IMG/VR virus record: IMGVR_UViG_3300048916_000052 | Coordinates: 1 to 38,970 of that record | Length of the DNA: 38,970 nt | Strand: one strand, 5' to 3' | DNA from: a virus | In this document: positions 21,437-29,440 of the stretch, piece by piece | How positions within the stretch are numbered: position 1 is the stretch's first letter | Layout: each line of letters starts with the position of its first letter | Program-made: the position numbers and the translations under genes | Notes under the pieces: model-generated | Database searches by the model: none | What the model was told of the DNA's origin: nothing | The model's input: only the letters and a program-made list of their open reading frames with translations

Positions 21437-22789
21437 CTAGTAAGAAAGACCTGTTCCGTATCCAAGTTTCTGAAGGTCTGGTAACTGCTTCTTTAACCGG
21501 CCGGCTCCTATGTCTGTCCTGTAAAAAGGAGAGTTCGGTATCTTTACCTTTTTTAGGGCACTGTACGCACTGCGGCGCGCGCCAGTTATCGTTTCGCCGA
21601 GACCTGTTGCGATCAGAACATAATCCCCCGCCGTCACCGGACCCGGAAGATCCACCACCTTCCCGTTAATCTCGCGCGGCGCGTCGCCGATCATGACTTC
21701 CGAGAAGTGAAGATGCTCCATATCTTCCGCATTGTAAATCGGTATGCCGCAAAGTTCCTTGTTCGTTATTTTCGAGTAGGGAAAGTCGGGCAGCGCCATC
21801 AGGACAGAGATGGAGACTACATCGGTCTTCACCTTCAGCGTGTCTCGCCCGTTCACCAGATCGAGCATCCATTGGGCCTGATCGCCTTCGATCAATGCGG
21901 TAAGGTTGTGGCGGATCGGCCAGCCGTCACGCATCGTCCACTCCAACGGATAGGGGGTTCCATCGTGCGTTATCATGCAGTTCACATCAACGTAGCCGAC
22001 GTACCCCACGCGCTGGAGATGATCTGTAGCCGGCTTGAGTACCTGGTCAGCCAGTTTCGACTTCTTCACGACGCGCACAGTAGTGCCCATCTCGCCCGTA
22101 TTCACGCCGAGATCGCCGTTCATCAGTTTCTTGTTCTCCCAGTTCTCAACCCATCCTGCTTTGGACCATCCAGCAGGCCCGAACCACCCGCCCACGGCCA
22201 TCTCCATCCCGTCAATCTTCTCCTGGAGAATAAATCCGTCTTCTTTGGCCGATTTGACGTATTTCGGGACTGTTTTCCAGCGCTGAAGCATGTAGACCAG
22301 ATCCGCCGCCGAGTTCGCAACATAGGACATTGCCCGCTCGCCGTCACCGGACGGCTTGGAGACAAACGCTTTACCCTGCTTTTTTACGTAGGCGATAGCT
22401 GAGTCGTAATCGTGGAACGTCTTGCCGTCGATGCACGGCATGCCGCACTCTTCCATAATCTTCTGGCCGACCTCGCGGTCGAGTTCCCATTCGACGGCAT
22501 CTAGATTGCAACCGAAGATCGGATAGCCGATGCGCCGGAAGGGCTCCAGCAGGTCGAGATAATGCGTGTTGTCGGGCGTGTAGATGAGATCCGCCCACCC
22601 GATCCACTTCTTGCGAAGATCGTTGAAATCGCGGATCTTGGTGACGAACCCCTCGCCCGCGTGGCGGTCTGTACCGTCGGGGCGCGGTTTGTCGTACCAG
22701 CGCACTTCATGCCCTTGCATCTGCCAGCGCATGCACAGGTCAAGCGCGTTGGAACCGACGTCAATCACCAAAATTCGTAGCTTTGTCAT
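21437..22789 (-). CDS. PurD-like ATP-grasp ligase, 450 aa
   Basis: The protein resembles glycinamide ribonucleotide synthetase (PurD), which joins an amino acid carboxylate to an amine using ATP. It has an N-terminal Rossmann-like start (LRILVIDVGSNALDLCMRW), then an ATP-grasp domain with GKAFVSKPSGDGERAMSYV and FILQEKIDGMEMAVGGW. Clear PurD signatures are NKKLMNGDLGVNTGEMGTTV and GYVGYVDVNCMITHDGTPYP. The metal-binding region reads LEWTMRDGWP, where PurD normally has an E-x-N pattern, so the Asn is replaced by Thr and the active site has diverged. Length matches PurD. It opens the unit ending with the putative small terminase. Role unknown; purine supply or base/protein modification are candidates. 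Confidence 0.8.
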   Translation of the reverse strand: MTKLRILVIDVGSNALDLCMRWQMQGHEVRWYDKPRPDGTDRHAGEGFVTKIRDFNDLRKKWIGWADLIYTPDNTHYLDLLEPFRRIGYPIFGCNLDAVEWELDREVGQKIMEECGMPCIDGKTFHDYDSAIAYVKKQGKAFVSKPSGDGERAMSYVANSAADLVYMLQRWKTVPKYVKSAKEDGFILQEKIDGMEMAVGGWFGPAGWSKAGWVENWENKKLMNGDLGVNTGEMGTTVRVVKKSKLADQVLKPATDHLQRVGYVGYVDVNCMITHDGTPYPLEWTMRDGWPIRHNLTALIEGDQAQWMLDLVNGRDTLKVKTDVVSISVLMALPDFPYSKITNKELCGIPIYNAEDMEHLHFSEVMIGDAPREINGKVVDLPGPVTAGDYVLIATGLGETITGARRSAYSALKKVKIPNSPFYRTDIGAGRLKKQLPDLQKLGYGTGLSY

Positions 22790-23083: not shown

Positions 23084-23175
23084 ACCTGAACCCGTGGCTG
23101 GATATCATTGCGGCGGTGATGCTAATTGTGTGCTGGTGGATGTCGGGTTCGTCGGACCACCACGACCATCGCTAG
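23080..23175 (+). CDS. Membrane micropeptide, 31 aa
   Basis: ATG 23080 overlaps the secreted-protein stop (ATGA). It encodes MNLNPWLDIIAAVMLIVCWW then MSGSSDHHDHR: one membrane helix with a His/Asp-rich tail that could bind metal. Its last 71 bases are antisense to the 3' end of the large minus-strand virion gene (23105-25069). The frame is short but coupled, and the signal-peptide/membrane pairing makes a membrane or lysis role conceivable. It does not match a spanin layout. Confidence 0.5.
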   Translation: MNLNPWLDIIAAVMLIVCWWMSGSSDHHDHR

Positions 23176-25069
23176 GCTGTCCGAACTGCGCGCGCAATGC
23201 GCCTACCGCCGCTTGCTGCGCCTTACCGCTCGTTGCGGCGTACGCCTTGCGAAGCAGATCACGCCCTTGCTGCGTCAGCAATGCTTTCGACGCAACGTAA
23301 GGCGTTACGACTGCGCTAACTGCCGCCAAAGGGTGCGAGATGGCGAGCGCCGGCAGGCTGGCAAGGTGGGCGACTCCCGTTGTTTTGGACGTGTTCACGC
23401 CTGTCTTATCACCCGCGCGCGCCATAGTGTCCGTGACGTCCTTGATGTCTTTTATCTCTTTGTTCGTGAATCCCATTTCAGCCAGCTTGGGCTGCACTTT
23501 GTCGATTTCCTTGCGGAACTTCGCAAAGGAGATCGGTGGTGCGCCGGGCACGTCGTTCTTTGCGGCCTCCAGGCCGTTTCGCAAAACGAAAGACTTCACG
23601 TCCTGAAGTGTTTGCGGATCGTGTTGCTGGAGAATCGAGGTGACCGACTTGGCTTCGCTCGGATTCATGTTCAGATACCGCTTCGCGATCAGTTCAGGCG
23701 CCTTGGTGGACGCCGTTGCGCCTGTGAATGCCGCGTCCGTCACGTCTTCGCCTAGCAGTTTGCCGAGCGCGGATTTCTTGATGAAATCAATGGATTGCGA
23801 AGCCTTCGCGTAGTTCGCGTTAGCTTTCGCCAAAGCCTGCGCGATAGGAGTATTACCACTGGACGCGTCTACAAAATCTTTGTTGATGGCCGCGAACAGG
23901 CGCTTCGCGTACACCTGATTGGCGTTCTGATCGATGTCGGAAAACACATTGCCCGTGCGGCGCGAGGCTTTCCCCCATGCGCTCCGGGTCTTCATGGCGT
24001 CGTCTACCGTGGCCGTGCCTTGCTTTGCCAGCAGATCTTTCGCCTGCTGAGCCTGCTTGACGATCTTCGGCGCGTCACCAGTAGGAACGTTTTTGTTTTC
24101 CGCGATGATCTTGTCGAGTGTGTCGAGCGTGTTTTTGTAGCCGATTACCGGCTTGCCCGCCGCCAGGGAGCGCACCGCGCCATAGTCAGTGGAAGCCTGC
24201 GAACTGCGCAACTTGTCGATGTTCTCGACAGTGTTTTTGTACGAACTGCGCAGCTGGTTGCCGATTGCTTCCGGGTCTGCCGTGGCTCGCCCCATCGCGC
24301 TTGCGAGATCATCTACGCGCTTTGCGCCGGCTGTCACCTGCGCCAGTTCGTCGGCGTGCGCCGTGCCGGCGGACGGGAACAGATCACGCAGCGTGTTCTC
24401 AGTGAAGGTAAGCGCCTTGCTTCCGGTCTCCTGCCCAAGCGTAAGCGGAATACCGGAAGCCTGCGACGCGCGCGTCGCTTCCGAAGGGGGTTTAGGGATA
24501 CCGCGCGCCGCGCCGGCCATACCGCCAGCCGCACCACCGATAAGCGAACCTGCGATCTGCCCCGGCGTGCCGCCAATCTCGCGCCCTGCTTCACCGCCCA
24601 ATCCACCGCCCACGGCTGCGCCTACGCGCGACAGTGCAGAAGCCCCGCCGCCCGGAATGGCAGCGGAAGGCAGCGCCTGCAAAGCGGCTGCGCCATACCG
24701 CTGCGCCGTGGTTCGCGGTTCCGCTGACTGCGTGATGACGCCGTGCTGTCGCAATAGGTCTTCGATATGCTCGGTGCTTCCAATCATCGGAGAATCGGAA
24801 CGCTTTTCAGCCGGCGCCTTGATGAGTTTGGCGAACTTCTCTGCGCCGGGGCCTTCCGTCGCTGCCTTCAACTGGCTTCCGATAGCAGCAGGGATGCCTG
24901 CGACTTGCGCGGCGCCTTTCGCCAGATTGCCGCCAACGAAGCCCGCCATGCTTTGCGGGGGTTGTTCGGGCGTTGCCGGTTCCGCCTGTTGCTTGTACTT
25001 CTCCCACGGCGCGACAGGTGCGCCGCTTTCCGGCGTGGCCTGCGCTGCGTACTTTTCCCAAGGGTTCAT
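23105..25069 (-). CDS. Large internal virion / DNA ejection protein, 654 aa
   Basis: ATG 25069 (MNPWEKYAAQATPESGAPVA) is chosen over a slightly upstream start because it overlaps the previous stop (ATGA) and NPWEKYA is a typical start of phage internal virion proteins, here repeated as APWEKYKQQ. Long Ala/Gly-rich glycine-zipper-like stretches (VGAAVGGGLGGEAGREIGG, AGSLIGGAAGGMAGAARG, around 150-200) could insert in membranes, followed by a long helical region. This resembles proteins ejected with DNA to form a channel through the cell envelope. It is the last gene of the late block. Confidence 0.8.
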   Translation of the reverse strand: MNPWEKYAAQATPESGAPVAPWEKYKQQAEPATPEQPPQSMAGFVGGNLAKGAAQVAGIPAAIGSQLKAATEGPGAEKFAKLIKAPAEKRSDSPMIGSTEHIEDLLRQHGVITQSAEPRTTAQRYGAAALQALPSAAIPGGGASALSRVGAAVGGGLGGEAGREIGGTPGQIAGSLIGGAAGGMAGAARGIPKPPSEATRASQASGIPLTLGQETGSKALTFTENTLRDLFPSAGTAHADELAQVTAGAKRVDDLASAMGRATADPEAIGNQLRSSYKNTVENIDKLRSSQASTDYGAVRSLAAGKPVIGYKNTLDTLDKIIAENKNVPTGDAPKIVKQAQQAKDLLAKQGTATVDDAMKTRSAWGKASRRTGNVFSDIDQNANQVYAKRLFAAINKDFVDASSGNTPIAQALAKANANYAKASQSIDFIKKSALGKLLGEDVTDAAFTGATASTKAPELIAKRYLNMNPSEAKSVTSILQQHDPQTLQDVKSFVLRNGLEAAKNDVPGAPPISFAKFRKEIDKVQPKLAEMGFTNKEIKDIKDVTDTMARAGDKTGVNTSKTTGVAHLASLPALAISHPLAAVSAVVTPYVASKALLTQQGRDLLRKAYAATSGKAQQAAVGALRAQFGQPSDGRGGPTNPTSTSTQLASPPQ

Positions 25070-26619
25070 TGCGCACGCTCCCAACTGGACGGAGAAGCCG
25101 GGTCACCGCCTTTGAAGCGGTAACCACTTTCCACGGTTCCGACTGCCGGACCGCCGGTGCCGGGCTCAGTAGGCTCTGCGCGTCCGCTGATCCGCGCCTT
25201 CTGGCGCGCCATCACTTCAGTAGGCGCCTTCTGTGCTGCCGCCATTTCCTTTTCCATCACATTCAGCACCGCATTCAACTGATCCGGCGTACTGGCCGTG
25301 GACAGCAGTTCGCGCGCGTGCTCCTTGTCGGCCACGGTCGGAACGCCTGTCGGGCTGATCGCGCGAGCATAGGCGTTGATCGACGTGTTAATGGCCGTGC
25401 CGAGGGCCACAACGCGCGGATCGCCTGAATTCGTCTGCGCGGCCTGCAATGCGCGGTTGACTGGCACAAACTCCGTGCGCGGCAGTGCGGCAGACGCCTG
25501 ACGAACCAGCGGGAAGGTGTTCTTAGCTTCTGATACCGCCATGCCGATATTCGCGGCGCGCGTGGCGCCCGTACGTGCCGCCGCCTTCTCGCCCTGGAAT
25601 CCAGCGTTGGCTGCTGCGATGTCGGCGCCTGTCTCGCCTGCTTCGCGCGTCTGCTTCATGACTTCGCGTCGCAAGGCTATGATGTTCTTCGCGCCCTGCG
25701 CTCCGCGACCAAGGTTCTGGTAGACGGACGTGTCCCCCTGTCGGGCCTGTTCCGCGAGAAACTTCAGGTCGTCCGGTGAGAACTTCGCGTCATCGCCATT
25801 GCTCAGTGCAACCTGCTGTTTCCGAAGCGCGATTGACTCACCGCGCAGCGCTGCGGACTCCCGCGCAGCGTCTGCGCGCTGCTGGATACTCAGGCGCCGG
25901 TCTTCCGAGGCCTGCTGCGCCGCTTCGCGCCGCTGGTCCAGTGCGTCGTGCCGATCCTGGACCGCCTGCAATTTCAACTCATTGTTGAACTGCCGTTGCA
26001 GTTGCGCGGCCTGCGCTTTCGATGCCGAATCGAGAACCGGCGTCAATTGCGCGAGTCCGGCCATCAGGTCCGCGCCTGACAGGCCCTGATCCTGAAGCAC
26101 CTTCACCGCGCCTTGAAGCGTCAGCGGTCCCCCTCCCTGTTGGGGAGCGGTTGCCGCAGCCTGTGCCGGCGGCGCGGGAATCGCGCCTTGCGGAGCCATC
26201 GACTGCGGCGGCGTGGTCGGCATCGGACGGAAAGGCGGGATCGGTTGTTGCTGCGCGCCTTGCGGAACACCGCCAGGGGGCAACGGAGGCTGCACGCCAC
26301 CCGGCGCCGGACCCTGACCGGGAAGCGGAGCCGCGCCTTGCGGTTGTTGCATAGGCTGCGACGCCTGCCCCGGTGCGGGAGGCTGCGGAGGGGGCGGCAT
26401 TTGCCCTTGCGGTTGCGCGGCCACCTGTCCGCCTGCCAGCAGTTGCGGCAAGGCGTTACCCGCAGCGGTCTGCGCAGCCTGCGCGCGCTGTCTGTCCTGC
26501 TGGGCTTGCTGGAACTGCAACATTTGCTGCTGCTGTTGCTGTTTCGCAAAGTCCTGTTGCTGAAGCTGCTGCTGGTACTGGAGGAAGTACGGCAGCGCGC
26601 CCACGTTAAACCCTGCCAT
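25066..26619 (-). CDS. Gln/Pro/Ala-rich virion protein, likely ejected, 517 aa
   Basis: ATG 26619 has AAGGAG upstream. The N-terminal 60 residues are extremely Gln-rich (YFLQYQQQLQQQDFAKQQQQ). Next is a Pro/Gly/Gln-rich linker to about 165, and then a long charged helical region (QRREAAQQASEDRRLSIQQR, ESAALRGESIALRKQQVALS). This arrangement, encoded between two other large late proteins at the end of the block, fits an internal or ejection protein. No enzymatic motif is seen. It overlaps the next gene (ATGA). Confidence 0.76.
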   Translation of the reverse strand: MAGFNVGALPYFLQYQQQLQQQDFAKQQQQQQMLQFQQAQQDRQRAQAAQTAAGNALPQLLAGGQVAAQPQGQMPPPPQPPAPGQASQPMQQPQGAAPLPGQGPAPGGVQPPLPPGGVPQGAQQQPIPPFRPMPTTPPQSMAPQGAIPAPPAQAAATAPQQGGGPLTLQGAVKVLQDQGLSGADLMAGLAQLTPVLDSASKAQAAQLQRQFNNELKLQAVQDRHDALDQRREAAQQASEDRRLSIQQRADAARESAALRGESIALRKQQVALSNGDDAKFSPDDLKFLAEQARQGDTSVYQNLGRGAQGAKNIIALRREVMKQTREAGETGADIAAANAGFQGEKAAARTGATRAANIGMAVSEAKNTFPLVRQASAALPRTEFVPVNRALQAAQTNSGDPRVVALGTAINTSINAYARAISPTGVPTVADKEHARELLSTASTPDQLNAVLNVMEKEMAAAQKAPTEVMARQKARISGRAEPTEPGTGGPAVGTVESGYRFKGGDPASPSSWERAQ

Positions 26620-26628
26620 GATCGCTCC

Positions 26629-27663
26629 TTACATGGTGAAGCCGTAGCTGTTCCCGCCGCCGGAGTAGTACGGGCTGGACGTGAACGCGCCGCTGAAGTC
26701 GCCACCGCCGAAAGAACCCGTCGTACCGCCAAACAGGTTGCCGAAACTGCCGGCGTTCTGGTACGCGTTGCCGAGGCCTTGAACAGCCTGCCCCGCCAGC
26801 GCGCCCGCTGCGCCCGCGCCTTGTTGCTGCGCCTGATAGGGGACCGCTTGCGCACCAATACCGGCGTTCATGTACGGAATCGCCTGTTGCTGGAACCCCT
26901 GCGCCGGTCCGTAAGTCGTGTTTTGCAGATAGTTGCCGTAGTTCTGGCCGATCTGTGCCGGCGCGCCGCCAAGCTCTTGCCCCACCTGATACGGCAACTG
27001 ACCGCTCTGCAAGGTGTACCCGGCGCCTGCCGCGCCGAGCGCGCCGCCCTGCGCCGCTGCCTGCCCCGCCTGCCCGATGGCGGACCCGTAGCCCTGAAGA
27101 CCGGACAACTGGCGTTGCAGCTGCTGGTTCTGCCAATCGATGTTGAAATTGCCAAGCGCCTGATTCGCGACGCCTGCGCCGGCAGCACTGGACCCCAGCC
27201 CGTACATGCTGTTCGTGGCCCCCGTCTGGTCCTGCAACTGCTGGACGGTGCGGTTGTATAGCGCGTTCTGCGGATCGAATGCCGTGTTGTAAACCTGCTG
27301 CCCGGCGTTAATCAGTCCCTGCTGCTGCCCGAACTGAAGGTTCGAAGCGTTCGTCAGGTTGTTACCGAGGCTGCCGTATTGCTGGCCCGCGACGTTCGCC
27401 GCATTCTGGTAGGGGCTACCGTACTTGTTGTAGGCGTCCAGTTGCGCGGCCAGCGACTGCTGACCGTAGTCCTGCAACTGCTGTTGCGAACCGCTGAACA
27501 CGTTGTAGTTCTGGTTTTGCAGGTTCTGCCATTGCTGGTCGGCGCCTTGCAAACCGGTAGGCACATAGTATGAACCTGAACCGCCGCTCCCGCCTGAAGG
27601 CGATGGGGCCAGGGCGGCGGACACTCCCGCACCAACTGCTGCTGCTGCGACTCCCCATGGCAT
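26629..27663 (-). CDS. Gln/Gly/Asn/Tyr-rich virion protein, likely ejected, 344 aa
   Basis: ATG 27663 has AAGGAG upstream, inside the end of the cupin gene. A hydrophobic Ala-rich start (MPWGVAAAAVGAGVSAALAP) precedes a long low-complexity region of Gln, Asn, Tyr, Gly and Ala with heptad-like repeats (QWQNLQNQNYNVFSGSQQQL, NFNIDWQNQQLQRQLSGLQG). It ends in Gly/Ser/Phe-rich sequence. Composition and position match the smaller of the trio of ejection proteins in podoviruses. It follows a hydroxylase/cupin pair, raising the possibility that it is their substrate; that is speculative. Confidence 0.74.
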   Translation of the reverse strand: MPWGVAAAAVGAGVSAALAPSPSGGSGGSGSYYVPTGLQGADQQWQNLQNQNYNVFSGSQQQLQDYGQQSLAAQLDAYNKYGSPYQNAANVAGQQYGSLGNNLTNASNLQFGQQQGLINAGQQVYNTAFDPQNALYNRTVQQLQDQTGATNSMYGLGSSAAGAGVANQALGNFNIDWQNQQLQRQLSGLQGYGSAIGQAGQAAAQGGALGAAGAGYTLQSGQLPYQVGQELGGAPAQIGQNYGNYLQNTTYGPAQGFQQQAIPYMNAGIGAQAVPYQAQQQGAGAAGALAGQAVQGLGNAYQNAGSFGNLFGGTTGSFGGGDFSGAFTSSPYYSGGGNSYGFTM

Positions 27664-27667
27664 GATG

Positions 27668-27949
27668 TCACTCCTTATCGATGTCCGGGTCCGCTATCGC
27701 TTCCGAGTGAATGCAGAGCCAGGTAATATCTGTTAGCGCCTGAATCGTATGCTTCTTTCCGGCCTTGATTTCCAGCATGCAGGGCCCGTGCAGGACCTGC
27801 AGTTCGCCATCTATGTCTACGGTCGCGTGACCCGCGCCGAGATAGCTCAAGTGGTCGTAGTCGTGCACGTGCTTCTCGACCACCTGGCCGGTCCGCAACG
27901 TCTGTTCGCGCGCGTACACCCCGCCGGCTGAAAAGTGATGCTTAATCAT
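27668..27949 (-). CDS. Small cupin-fold protein, 93 aa
   Basis: ATG 27949 overlaps the oxygenase stop (ATGA) and replaces an upstream GTG. The sequence MIKHHFSAGGVYAREQTLRT, then EKHVHDYDHLSYLGAGHATV (His27, His29 and His33 region), HGPCMLEIKAGKKHTIQAL (His67) and WLCIHSE has the two short motifs of a single-domain cupin with a histidine metal site. Such proteins can be dioxygenases, isomerases or sensors. Pairing with a 2-oxoglutarate oxygenase suggests one small-molecule or protein modification pathway. No substrate can be assigned. Confidence 0.8.
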   Translation of the reverse strand: MIKHHFSAGGVYAREQTLRTGQVVEKHVHDYDHLSYLGAGHATVDIDGELQVLHGPCMLEIKAGKKHTIQALTDITWLCIHSEAIADPDIDKE

Positions 27950-28509
27950 CGCTCGCACCGCAGGCAGATAATCAGCGTGATCCGGTCATCCGGACCGTCG
28001 TTCGTGACTTCGTGCTCTTTCAGGTTATCGAAGTACCAGACTTCGCCTGGCGCCATCGCAACCCGTTCTTCTTCCACGCGGTTCACGCACTGCGGATTCG
28101 ACTGCAAAACCACGTACAGCTTGGTATTGTAATACTTCGCGTGCCAGCCATCGTCCGCGTGCGGCTCGATGCGGCCGCCGGGTGGGATACGGGTAATCAT
28201 GACCCCGCCGATCCGGACCGCGCGCACGCGGTGCGCGAGATCGAATACCACCTGATGGAGCGACGGCAGCGCGAACCATTCCGGGTAGAATTTCGCGTCG
28301 TGCTCATCGTTGAACTTCGAGTAGTCGCCCGATTCCTTGAACGGCTTTTCGTCGTTGTATCGAAGCCAGATATCGTCCATTGCCGCGTGCGGAGTCTCCG
28401 GCGCGGTCTTCCTGACCGTGTGCCGGTTCCACAGTTTAGGCTGGCGCGCGATTTCCAGAAGCATGGGCGCCGTGTCGATACCTGCTGCGATCTTTACAAG
28501 GTTCCTCAT
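27946..28509 (-). CDS. Aspartyl/asparaginyl hydroxylase-like 2-oxoglutarate oxygenase, 187 aa
   Basis: The start is ATG 28509, overlapping the holin stop; the frame extends far upstream, but that part is the shadow of the holin gene. The Fe(II) facial triad and 2-oxoglutarate Arg are visible: EPHADDGW (His117, Asp119), KEHEV (His166) and DDRITLI (Arg176). RIPPGGRIEPHADDGWHAKY and YVVLQSNPQCVNR match the Asp/Asn beta-hydroxylase group. The enzyme would hydroxylate an Asp/Asn-type side chain or related target. It sits between the holin and cupin genes. The substrate is unknown; a virion or host protein is possible. Confidence 0.85.
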   Translation of the reverse strand: MRNLVKIAAGIDTAPMLLEIARQPKLWNRHTVRKTAPETPHAAMDDIWLRYNDEKPFKESGDYSKFNDEHDAKFYPEWFALPSLHQVVFDLAHRVRAVRIGGVMITRIPPGGRIEPHADDGWHAKYYNTKLYVVLQSNPQCVNRVEEERVAMAPGEVWYFDNLKEHEVTNDGPDDRITLIICLRCER

Positions 28510-28889
28510 TTGCTGACGCCCTTTACGCGTTCGAATGTGTGCAGACCGCCGAGCCCTAACATTCCCATGAGAACCGGCATCATTTCCGACAGGTCGGCGG
28601 GACTTAGCGTGATCGGATGGCCGGCGAGCGTCAATCCGAGCTTCGCGATAGGCAGGCCCATCCAGTTCCATACGCAGGCCATGCCGCAGGCCCAACCGAT
28701 GAACGGACGCCAGCCCGCGACGAACGTACTCTCGTTCGACGCTTCTGCCTGGTTGATCGCCATCTGGCCTTGCACCATCGTCAGGACGGCGGCCAGCTGC
28801 TGCTGTTCCTGCTGCGACTTGTCCGGCCAGATGCGAGAAACGATAGTGCTCGCGAAGTCCAGTCCAGCCGTGATCGGGTCTAGTGCCAT
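28506..28889 (-). CDS. Holin, GTA/3TM type, 127 aa
   Basis: This is a lysis-timing membrane protein. It begins MALDPITAGLDFASTIVSRI with a charged/Gln helix (PDKSQQEQQQLAAVLTMVQG). Membrane segments follow: FVAGWRPFIGWACGMACVWN and MGLPIAKLGLTL around residues 57-90, and a C-terminal MMPVLMGMLGLGGLHTFERV. This order, with the W-R-P-F-I-G-W motif, is characteristic of the 3TM/GTA holin family. ATG 28889 has GGAG upstream and overlaps the endolysin stop by 10 bases. Confidence 0.87.
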   Translation of the reverse strand: MALDPITAGLDFASTIVSRIWPDKSQQEQQQLAAVLTMVQGQMAINQAEASNESTFVAGWRPFIGWACGMACVWNWMGLPIAKLGLTLAGHPITLSPADLSEMMPVLMGMLGLGGLHTFERVKGVSK

Positions 28890-29440
28890 GATTCGCTCCA
28901 GTAGCCGTCACCGACGCCAAGCGCGGTGCAGCACATCTTCCACAGGTTCACGCGGTCATCGTACCCGTTCAGCCCGCCGTTGATGACTTTCGTGATGCCT
29001 TCGAAGTCCATCAGTTCGGCGCAGACGTTCAGACCGTGCGTATTCCAGAACCAGGCCGCCGACTGCGCAGCGTTGCCCGGTTGCTCTAGCAATTCAGGGT
29101 GATCCGTCAACGGCAGCACGAGCGCATCGCCCGCGCGCTGGTAGTTCGCGCGGCCCGTGACCTGGATCAGGCCCCGGCCCCGGAACTTGAACCCGTCGCC
29201 CTTCTCGGTGTTGCCGAGATCCGCGCGGCCTTCGTAGCGCTCCTGCGCGGGCGTCGGGCCCCACAGTTCCCTTACGTAGACCAGTCGTCCAGATTCGTGG
29301 CCGATCTGCGCAAGGAACGCAGCCTGGCGCTTAGGCGAATCGATCGCATAAAGCGCCATTGCCGCAGACAGCGGATCAGTCCACGTTTGCGCGCGAGCGA
29401 GAGGAATCCCAAGGCAGGCGGCCAGTTCTTCCGGAATCAC
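28880..29440 (-). CDS. Endolysin, glycoside hydrolase family 19, 186 aa
   Basis: This lysozyme/chitinase-type enzyme degrades peptidoglycan. Motifs are IGHESGRLVYVRELWGPTPA with the first catalytic Glu (Glu49), ERYEGRADLGNTEKGDG, then KFRGRGLIQVTGRANYQRAG and AAWFWNTHGLN. There is no signal peptide, so export through the adjacent holin is expected. ATG 29440 overlaps the upstream stop (ATGA). Length is typical for phage GH19 enzymes. Confidence 0.92.
   Translation of the reverse strand: MIPEELAACLGIPLARAQTWTDPLSAAMALYAIDSPKRQAAFLAQIGHESGRLVYVRELWGPTPAQERYEGRADLGNTEKGDGFKFRGRGLIQVTGRANYQRAGDALVLPLTDHPELLEQPGNAAQSAAWFWNTHGLNVCAELMDFEGITKVINGGLNGYDDRVNLWKMCCTALGVGDGYWSESWH

Follow-up and report, generated by a model that had tools for sequence, protein, structure and literature searches.

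Background

Phage ejection proteins refold and penetrate membranes, and their assembly and the accessory factors involved are poorly explained. Gene 13 of T7 and gene 14 of P22 are located directly before the first ejection gene, with the product of the former being called a probable scaffold in Pfam and that of the latter being assigned to head morphogenesis in PHROG. In the available sections of PMC6775973, a GNAT encoded beside internal virion proteins (cobavirus pc40) is equated with T7 gp13, both being small genes beside the first ejection genes with a suggested role in virion morphogenesis, a position like that of the gene pair described here. The cupins of Thalassomonas phage BA3 and Vibrio phage VPMS1, which are of the kind labelled “short tail fiber” or “tail fiber adhesin”, also directly precede a gene annotated “DNA ejection”, as our pair precedes a gene for a 344-aa protein.

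PF05118-type oxygenases have been mentioned in pelagimyophages (PMC7029224) and in Limnohabitans phage DC33 (PMC12195039), and the accessible parts of both papers do not describe a context before ejection genes. A roseophage paper (PMC11288001) lists, in its accessible part, GNATs and 2OG oxygenases by subgroup, and the available text of a review on ejection proteins (PMC8954989) contains neither “acetyltransferase” nor “post-translational”. No description of an oxygenase or a cupin in the slot before ejection genes was met in the accessible text of the literature searched.

Organization of the locus

The window, i.e. the whole stretch of DNA analysed here, is a virus record of 38,970 bases with its late block on the minus strand, where the order of genes is endolysin, holin, oxygenase, cupin, 344-aa protein, 517-aa protein, 659-aa protein and ATP-grasp protein. 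No tRNA and no Rfam match at the gathering threshold were detected in the whole window. The upstream neighbours of the oxygenase and the cupin are a GH19-type endolysin (28880..29440, minus strand; phrog_181, 7.4e-66; Glyco_hydro_19, 1.1e-8) and a holin (28506..28889, minus strand; GTA_holin_3TM, Pfam 2.9e-20).

The enzyme pair was correctly placed at 27668-28509 in the earlier note. It consists of a 2OG/Fe(II) oxygenase of the PF05118 type with the length of 187 aa (27946..28509, minus strand) and a single-domain cupin of 93 aa (27668..27949, minus strand) counted from the ATG, which was taken as its start although the mechanical ORF list begins at an upstream GTG at 27958. The coupling of the two genes proposed earlier would agree with their reading frames, which overlap by an ATGA read from the sequence at 27946..27949 (minus strand) and comprising the oxygenase stop and the cupin start; in 45 of 81 relatives the boundaries of the oxygenase and cupin profiles lie at the same offset as this overlap.

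Downstream, the gene for the 344-aa protein (26629..27663, minus strand) is followed by genes for a second putative ejection protein of 517 aa (25066..26619, minus strand) and a third one of 659 aa (23105..25084, minus strand), both assigned by position, with no Pfam or PHROG match for the former and no significant family match in Pfam and PHROG for the latter. A PurD-like ATP-grasp protein of 450 aa (21437..22789, minus strand; GARS_A, 2.6e-11), which scores 109.5 bits against the purD model, below the cut-off of 288, is encoded further along in this block, following the ejection genes. PurD-like ATP-grasp genes also occur in further phages whose slots hold an oxygenase, a GNAT or a cupin (L251, L252, L254, L255, L101).

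The oxygenase

The oxygenase was assigned on the basis of its Pfam match (E 1.6e-15), its fold model and the conservation of its ligands. It scores 57.7 bits against the PF05118 cut-off of 22.6 and so belongs to this family, whose double-stranded beta-helix fold and Fe(II)/2OG residues were found in the predicted model, the Foldseek matches and the HxD...H...R motif. The full His-Asp-His/Arg set attributed earlier to an Asp/Asn-hydroxylase-like enzyme was recovered as H117-x-D119...H166...R176, of which, judging by what is known of the PF05118 family, H117, D119 and H166 are presumably Fe ligands and R176 the 2OG-binding residue. H117 and D119 are present in all 115 distinct oxygenases, H166 in 114/114 aligned ones and an Arg at the position of R176 in 109 of these 114, the other five having no aligned Arg there; since the sequences are related, these ligand counts and those given for the cupin below are not independent.

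The AlphaFold model, built with 24 clade sequences, has a pLDDT of 93.4 and is closest in Foldseek to L-proline cis-4-hydroxylase (4p7w, 9.6e-11), with human AspH (6.4e-8) and proline 3-hydroxylase (1.6e-7) among the other near folds. L-proline cis-4-hydroxylase 4p7w and proline 3-hydroxylase 1e5r are also the best PDB relatives by sequence; the alignment shows that 4p7w shares the HxD...H...R motif of the phage oxygenase, and the 4p7w and 1e5r chains are longer (260-292 aa versus 187 aa). The human aspartyl/asparaginyl beta-hydroxylase (5apa, 5jqy) has the Pfam family name and the fold in common with the phage protein, but possesses HxG (5apa) instead of HxD and a TPR part which the phage protein lacks. 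An identity as AspH, the beta-hydroxylase of EGF-like domains, was rejected given the invariant HxD and the length of only 187 aa, and so was that of an LpxO lipid A hydroxylase, as the score against the NCBIfam equivalog was 22.7 with a cut-off of 500 bits.

Both members of the pair are under purifying selection. In pairwise comparisons with relatives, the oxygenase has dN/dS values of 0.045-0.168 and the cupin values of 0.051-0.155 (six comparisons each), and those of the 344-aa gene are 0.19-0.34 (five comparisons), all of these ratios being rough because dS exceeds 1 in many comparisons.

The cupin

The cupin scores 27.9 bits, just above the Cupin_2 cut-off of 27.2 (E 1.9e-6), and is therefore a member of that family; it also matches, by sequence only, phrog_12032 (4.8e-14) and phrog_24280 (1.1e-12), which bear short tail fiber and adhesin labels. 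The model (pLDDT 87.6) is a single small barrel whose structural neighbours include many small cupins, several of which bind metal. The fold is like that of the manganese cupin TM1459 and other small metallocupins, with an identity of about 13-22% among the matches listed, from which no function is deduced.

The His ligands of both cupin motifs are present as a four-His site (H27, H29, H33 and H67), which by sequence makes the protein a probable metallocupin. The site is complete in 86/86 distinct cupins from oxygenase loci, whereas among 93 distinct cupins from loci with no oxygenase in view it is complete in 57 and incomplete in 36. The BA3 and VPMS1 cupins are homologous to that of the window (37% identity, 5e-10 and 29% identity, 1e-5, respectively) but, unlike it, carry an N-terminal extension and each have other residues in place of two of the four His.

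The 344-aa protein

The earlier note described the gene following the pair as an Asn/Gln-rich virion gene. This is right as to composition, with 16.3% Q and 8.1% N along with 18.6% G and 14.8% A, but the identity of the product as an ejection protein is positional. The protein, which starts with MPWG, is also nearly devoid of charged residues (K 0.3%, H 0, R 0.6%, E 0.3%, D 2.0%), and an FN(I/L)DW motif is conserved in the clade.

The recognised ejection family is phrog_598 (“DNA ejection”), to which P22 gp7 itself belongs and which shows a weak similarity to the Pfam families P22_gp7 and T7_gp14. For the 344-aa protein there is no match in either Pfam or PHROG, nor is it picked up by the profile of the phrog_598-like family, and a profile-profile comparison (hhalign) with this family aligned 24 columns at the MPW start with a probability of 82%. 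A direct homology to the recognised family was therefore not established, membership in phrog_598 finding no support in the profile tests. In the absence of a family match, the ejection role rests on position and synteny: the gene is located before two more large genes and has similar neighbours, so it is likely to be the counterpart of the recognised ejection gene, in the position of P22 gp7 and T7 gp14. Synteny, the clade alignment and the weak N-terminal profile match all point to a likely ejection protein.

The composition of ejection proteins was compared between loci with and without the oxygenase. The raw difference in Asn content (p = 7.6e-5) was gone after clustering (Asn p = 0.21, Asp 0.35, Pro 0.77), and for Ser content the clustered value was 0.0496. 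The idea of an Asn/Gln-rich substrate was thus rejected as evidence, the Asn difference having vanished.

Conservation of the block among relatives

In IMG/VR, 55 loci were found with the oxygenase query and 47 with the cupin query, and alignment queries gave more; each scan yields the best 80 loci at most, so the counts below are not a census. The loci fetched by the oxygenase or the cupin comprise 85 distinct blocks, three of which were too short, leaving 82. The cupin is located next to the oxygenase in 81 of them, and an ejection-type gene is present in all 82, being of the window's type in 79 and of the MPW type in three. The ATP-grasp gene is found in 69/82, and the other 13 blocks end at most 7.3 kb downstream. 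The recurring order is oxygenase, cupin, 344-aa gene, more genes and ATP-grasp gene. Among the best 80 loci anchored on the ATP-grasp gene, 29 were too short and all 51 usable ones contain the oxygenase, the cupin and the ejection-type gene, this set consisting of close relatives partly on the same contigs as the blocks above.

The pair had been described as inserted between lysis and ejection genes. The holin and the endolysin do lie on one side of it, but the word “inserted” gives the wrong picture, as it is the pair that stays constant, with the endolysin and some tail genes being undetected, i.e. missing or diverged, in several relatives.

The window's block is also carried by two GTDB genomes of Paraburkholderia (L242, L243), which suggests this genus as the host group. 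One IMG/VR contig of 79,073 bases carries the oxygenase locus twice, in differing copies separated by about 40 kb (L059 and L062), which may be tandem prophages or a joined assembly.

Oxygenase loci beyond the clade

A scan of 84,980 species genomes gave no loci with a single-protein query and 25 with an alignment query. In 14 of the 25 a recognised ejection gene lies downstream, at most 1,300 nt from the end of the oxygenase, two of these loci (L242, L243) belonging to the window's clade and two others (L244, L247) coming from one genome. The slot contains the oxygenase followed by a cupin in four of the 14 loci, the oxygenase followed by a GNAT in four, the oxygenase alone in four, and the oxygenase preceded by a sulfotransferase-like gene or by a cupin in one each. 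A similar arrangement is seen in L246, L248, L249 and L257 before a frame starting with MPF, MGF or MPW which is not recognised by the ejection profile.

There are also exceptions. In L258 and L260 the oxygenase gene is located elsewhere, on the opposite strand from the ejection gene, and in L357 it lies about 2.7 kb upstream of it. Five oxygenases are outside a phage context, with L262-L265 sharing a non-phage neighbourhood and L266 having no phage genes around it. The PF05118 oxygenases of L262-L265 come from Roseobacter-group genomes, where hydrolase-like, 355-376-aa and 558-aa genes are shared, and that of L265 is in two frames.

Among named phages, Pseudomonas phage PfAn1 shows the order oxygenase, GNAT, ejection gene, Limnohabitans phage DC33 has an oxygenase followed by a GNAT, and in ctXG1253 the oxygenase is followed by a weak ejection match. 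L097 and L098 possess a cupin with no oxygenase at the same place before the ejection gene. Clustering of the 119 distinct oxygenases at 55% identity gave 23 clusters, 16 of which include a recognised ejection gene according to a table read by eye.

The earlier note had reasoned that a pair lying next to unrelated genes with no consistent partner would argue against its reading, and had proposed looking for its co-occurrence with the 344-aa protein. A consistent partner was found both in the clade, where it is the gene of the window's type described above, and, as an ejection-type gene, in many distant phages and prophages, with L258, L260 and L262-L266 as the exceptions.

Variable content of the slot before ejection genes

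The oxygenase-cupin pair immediately precedes, in the same orientation, the first ejection-type gene, and this is the position of T7 gp13 and P22 gp14 provided that the positional assignment of the 344-aa protein holds. Oxygenase, cupin, GNAT, sulfotransferase-like and gp13-like proteins were counted as slot families. Among the best 80 loci anchored on the ejection gene, 77 were usable, and a slot enzyme ending at most 1,300 nt upstream was found in 59 and none in 18, frequencies which are inflated because the survey was seeded with sequences from oxygenase and cupin loci and because slot proteins were the source of the GNAT, sulfotransferase-like and gp13-like models. Only three matches of the slot families were located elsewhere in 686 kb, and this positional contrast is less affected by the seed bias than the frequencies. 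The GNAT and sulfotransferase-like calls were made from matches to phrog_1249, Pfam Acetyltransf_1, phrog_10855 and Sulfotransfer that fall short of the Pfam cut-off.

A second, related set anchored on the ATP-grasp gene (best 80 loci, 42 usable) has a slot enzyme in 31/42 when filtered by position, namely a GNAT in 20, a cupin in seven, a cupin with an oxygenase in three and a sulfotransferase-like protein in one; seven of the remaining loci have no slot enzyme, three have no room upstream and one has no recognised ejection gene, and a single cupin match was located elsewhere.

A random draw was made among genomes from the orders, classes or phylum of three host genomes, with 19 loci taken and 18 usable (L277 was not). 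L268 (reached via the oxygenase), the partial loci L279 and L280, and L281 (a second weak match in the same genome) had been dropped before the count, and L370, L374, L382 and L383 were also dropped as weak. A slot family was recognised by model in 8/18, represented by one oxygenase, two cupins, two GNATs and three gp13-like proteins (two of them from one genome). The other ten ejection genes have no recognised slot enzyme, including L368, which is GNAT-like by eye only.

Several further occupants were observed. A 355-aa slot protein in which a sulfotransferase-like and a GNAT domain are fused is encoded in L315 (1767-2831) and L360 (3887-4951), the fusion being based on a PHROG match for the former and near identity by eye for the latter. 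An unrelated family of about 145 aa fills the slot in L319, L331, L339 and L342, with L319 matching phrog_21390 (unknown function). Directly before the slot, a gene of about 111 aa starting with MTVTV, which is probably structural, recurs in many phages (L096, L097, L252, L276 and others).

The oxygenase and the cupin did not match PF11090, PF11039, phrog_308 or phrog_651, the families of T7 gp13 and P22 gp14, and no sequence relation was found between the pair and gp13 or the pc40 GNAT. As for the gp13-like slot proteins, their five-sequence alignment gave no significant hhalign match to GNAT and no link to T7 gp13, its match to P22 gp14 was weak (75%, 2.4e-5), and one of its members, L329, matches phrog_1249 (“acetyltransferase”) at 6.2e-4. 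With these comparisons being negative or weak, gp13 and gp14 are not claimed to be GNATs.

The context of the pair is therefore more general than the earlier note supposed; the arrangement was sparsely known before, and its occupancy by an oxygenase and a cupin was not met in the literature searched.

Discussion

Catalytic competence and linkage of the pair are supported by sequence; what is proposed below on the substrate, the product and the reaction of the cupin is inference. Our tentative reading, to which we give serious weight, is that the pair may represent an active 2OG oxygenase and a metal-binding cupin in an exchangeable slot for accessory enzymes, with the adjacent ejection protein as its most likely target. 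Both proteins would be made late in the host cell alongside the ejection protein, and the oxygenase would hydroxylate this protein or one of its partners prior to packaging. The four-His cupin may act in the same step, e.g. by carrying out a second oxidation or by holding or processing the product, and the modification could tune folding, solubility or membrane insertion of the channel-forming protein. Oxidation of the ejection protein before packaging is favoured because of the tight linkage, the overlapping frames and the intact active sites, and because the ejection gene is the most constant partner. Against it counts that the slot chemistries differ widely and that many ejection genes have no recognised enzyme, as seen in the random draw (10/18) and in the ejection-gene-anchored survey (18/77). 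The oxygenases located away from an ejection gene or outside phages, the five with no aligned Arg, the composition values after clustering and the positional identity of the 344-aa protein weigh in the same direction.

The earlier note had offered modification of a virion protein or, alternatively, of a small molecule or base. For the former, the consistent ejection-type partner and the conserved catalytic residues speak for an oxygenase that works and is tied to a virion protein, but the hint from Asn richness failed. Nothing pointing to base modification was seen, the family-library scans having covered proteins outside the early region.

More cautiously still, it is possible that the slot is a modular protein-tailoring site of short-tailed phages, in which hydroxylases, metallocupins, acetyltransferases and sulfotransferase-like enzymes replace one another and the channel carrying DNA across the host envelope is modified, T7 gp13 and P22 gp14 being old members.

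The location of T7 gene 13 and P22 gene 14 in the same position, with their scaffold and head morphogenesis annotations, would also fit an assembly chaperone or scaffold, i.e. enzyme folds reused as binding proteins by which the ejection protein is brought into the procapsid; gp13 and gp14 themselves may be of this kind. Such a role would agree with the loss of two or more His in some slot cupins, including those of BA3 and VPMS1 and the 36 incomplete sites outside oxygenase loci. Nevertheless, it appears rather unlikely for the window's pair, as conserved iron ligands and four-His sites in every cupin of the oxygenase loci are not expected of mere scaffolds, and neither protein has a sequence link to gp13 or gp14.

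Adjacency to the ejection gene, small soluble enzyme folds and interchangeable chemistries would likewise suit enzymes that are packaged with the ejection proteins, ejected and then act on a host target, and the cupin of Shewanella phage X14 was labelled a structural protein by its annotators, on grounds which are not visible. We consider this improbable; none of the five proteins tested had a match in PADLOC, by which the candidate role of a defence protein was rejected as well. Metabolic cargo, i.e. a free amino-acid hydroxylase of the proline-hydroxylase kind acting with the cupin in host small-molecule metabolism from a permissive late-operon site, is suggested by the free L-proline hydroxylases being the closest solved structures (4p7w and 1e5r by sequence, 4p7w by fold) but is equally improbable, given the late-operon position and a linkage with the ejection-type gene that is almost without exception in the clade and recurs across clusters, which is tight for loose cargo.

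The finding of one or another small enzyme at the same spot in many phages suggests chemical tailoring of the DNA-injection machinery. If it is true that alternative modifying enzymes recur beside ejection genes, they would provide a direct handle on the maturation of ejection proteins, and a meaning would be suggested for the little-understood genes 13 of T7 and 14 of P22, as well as for some phage oxygenases now filed as auxiliary metabolic genes.
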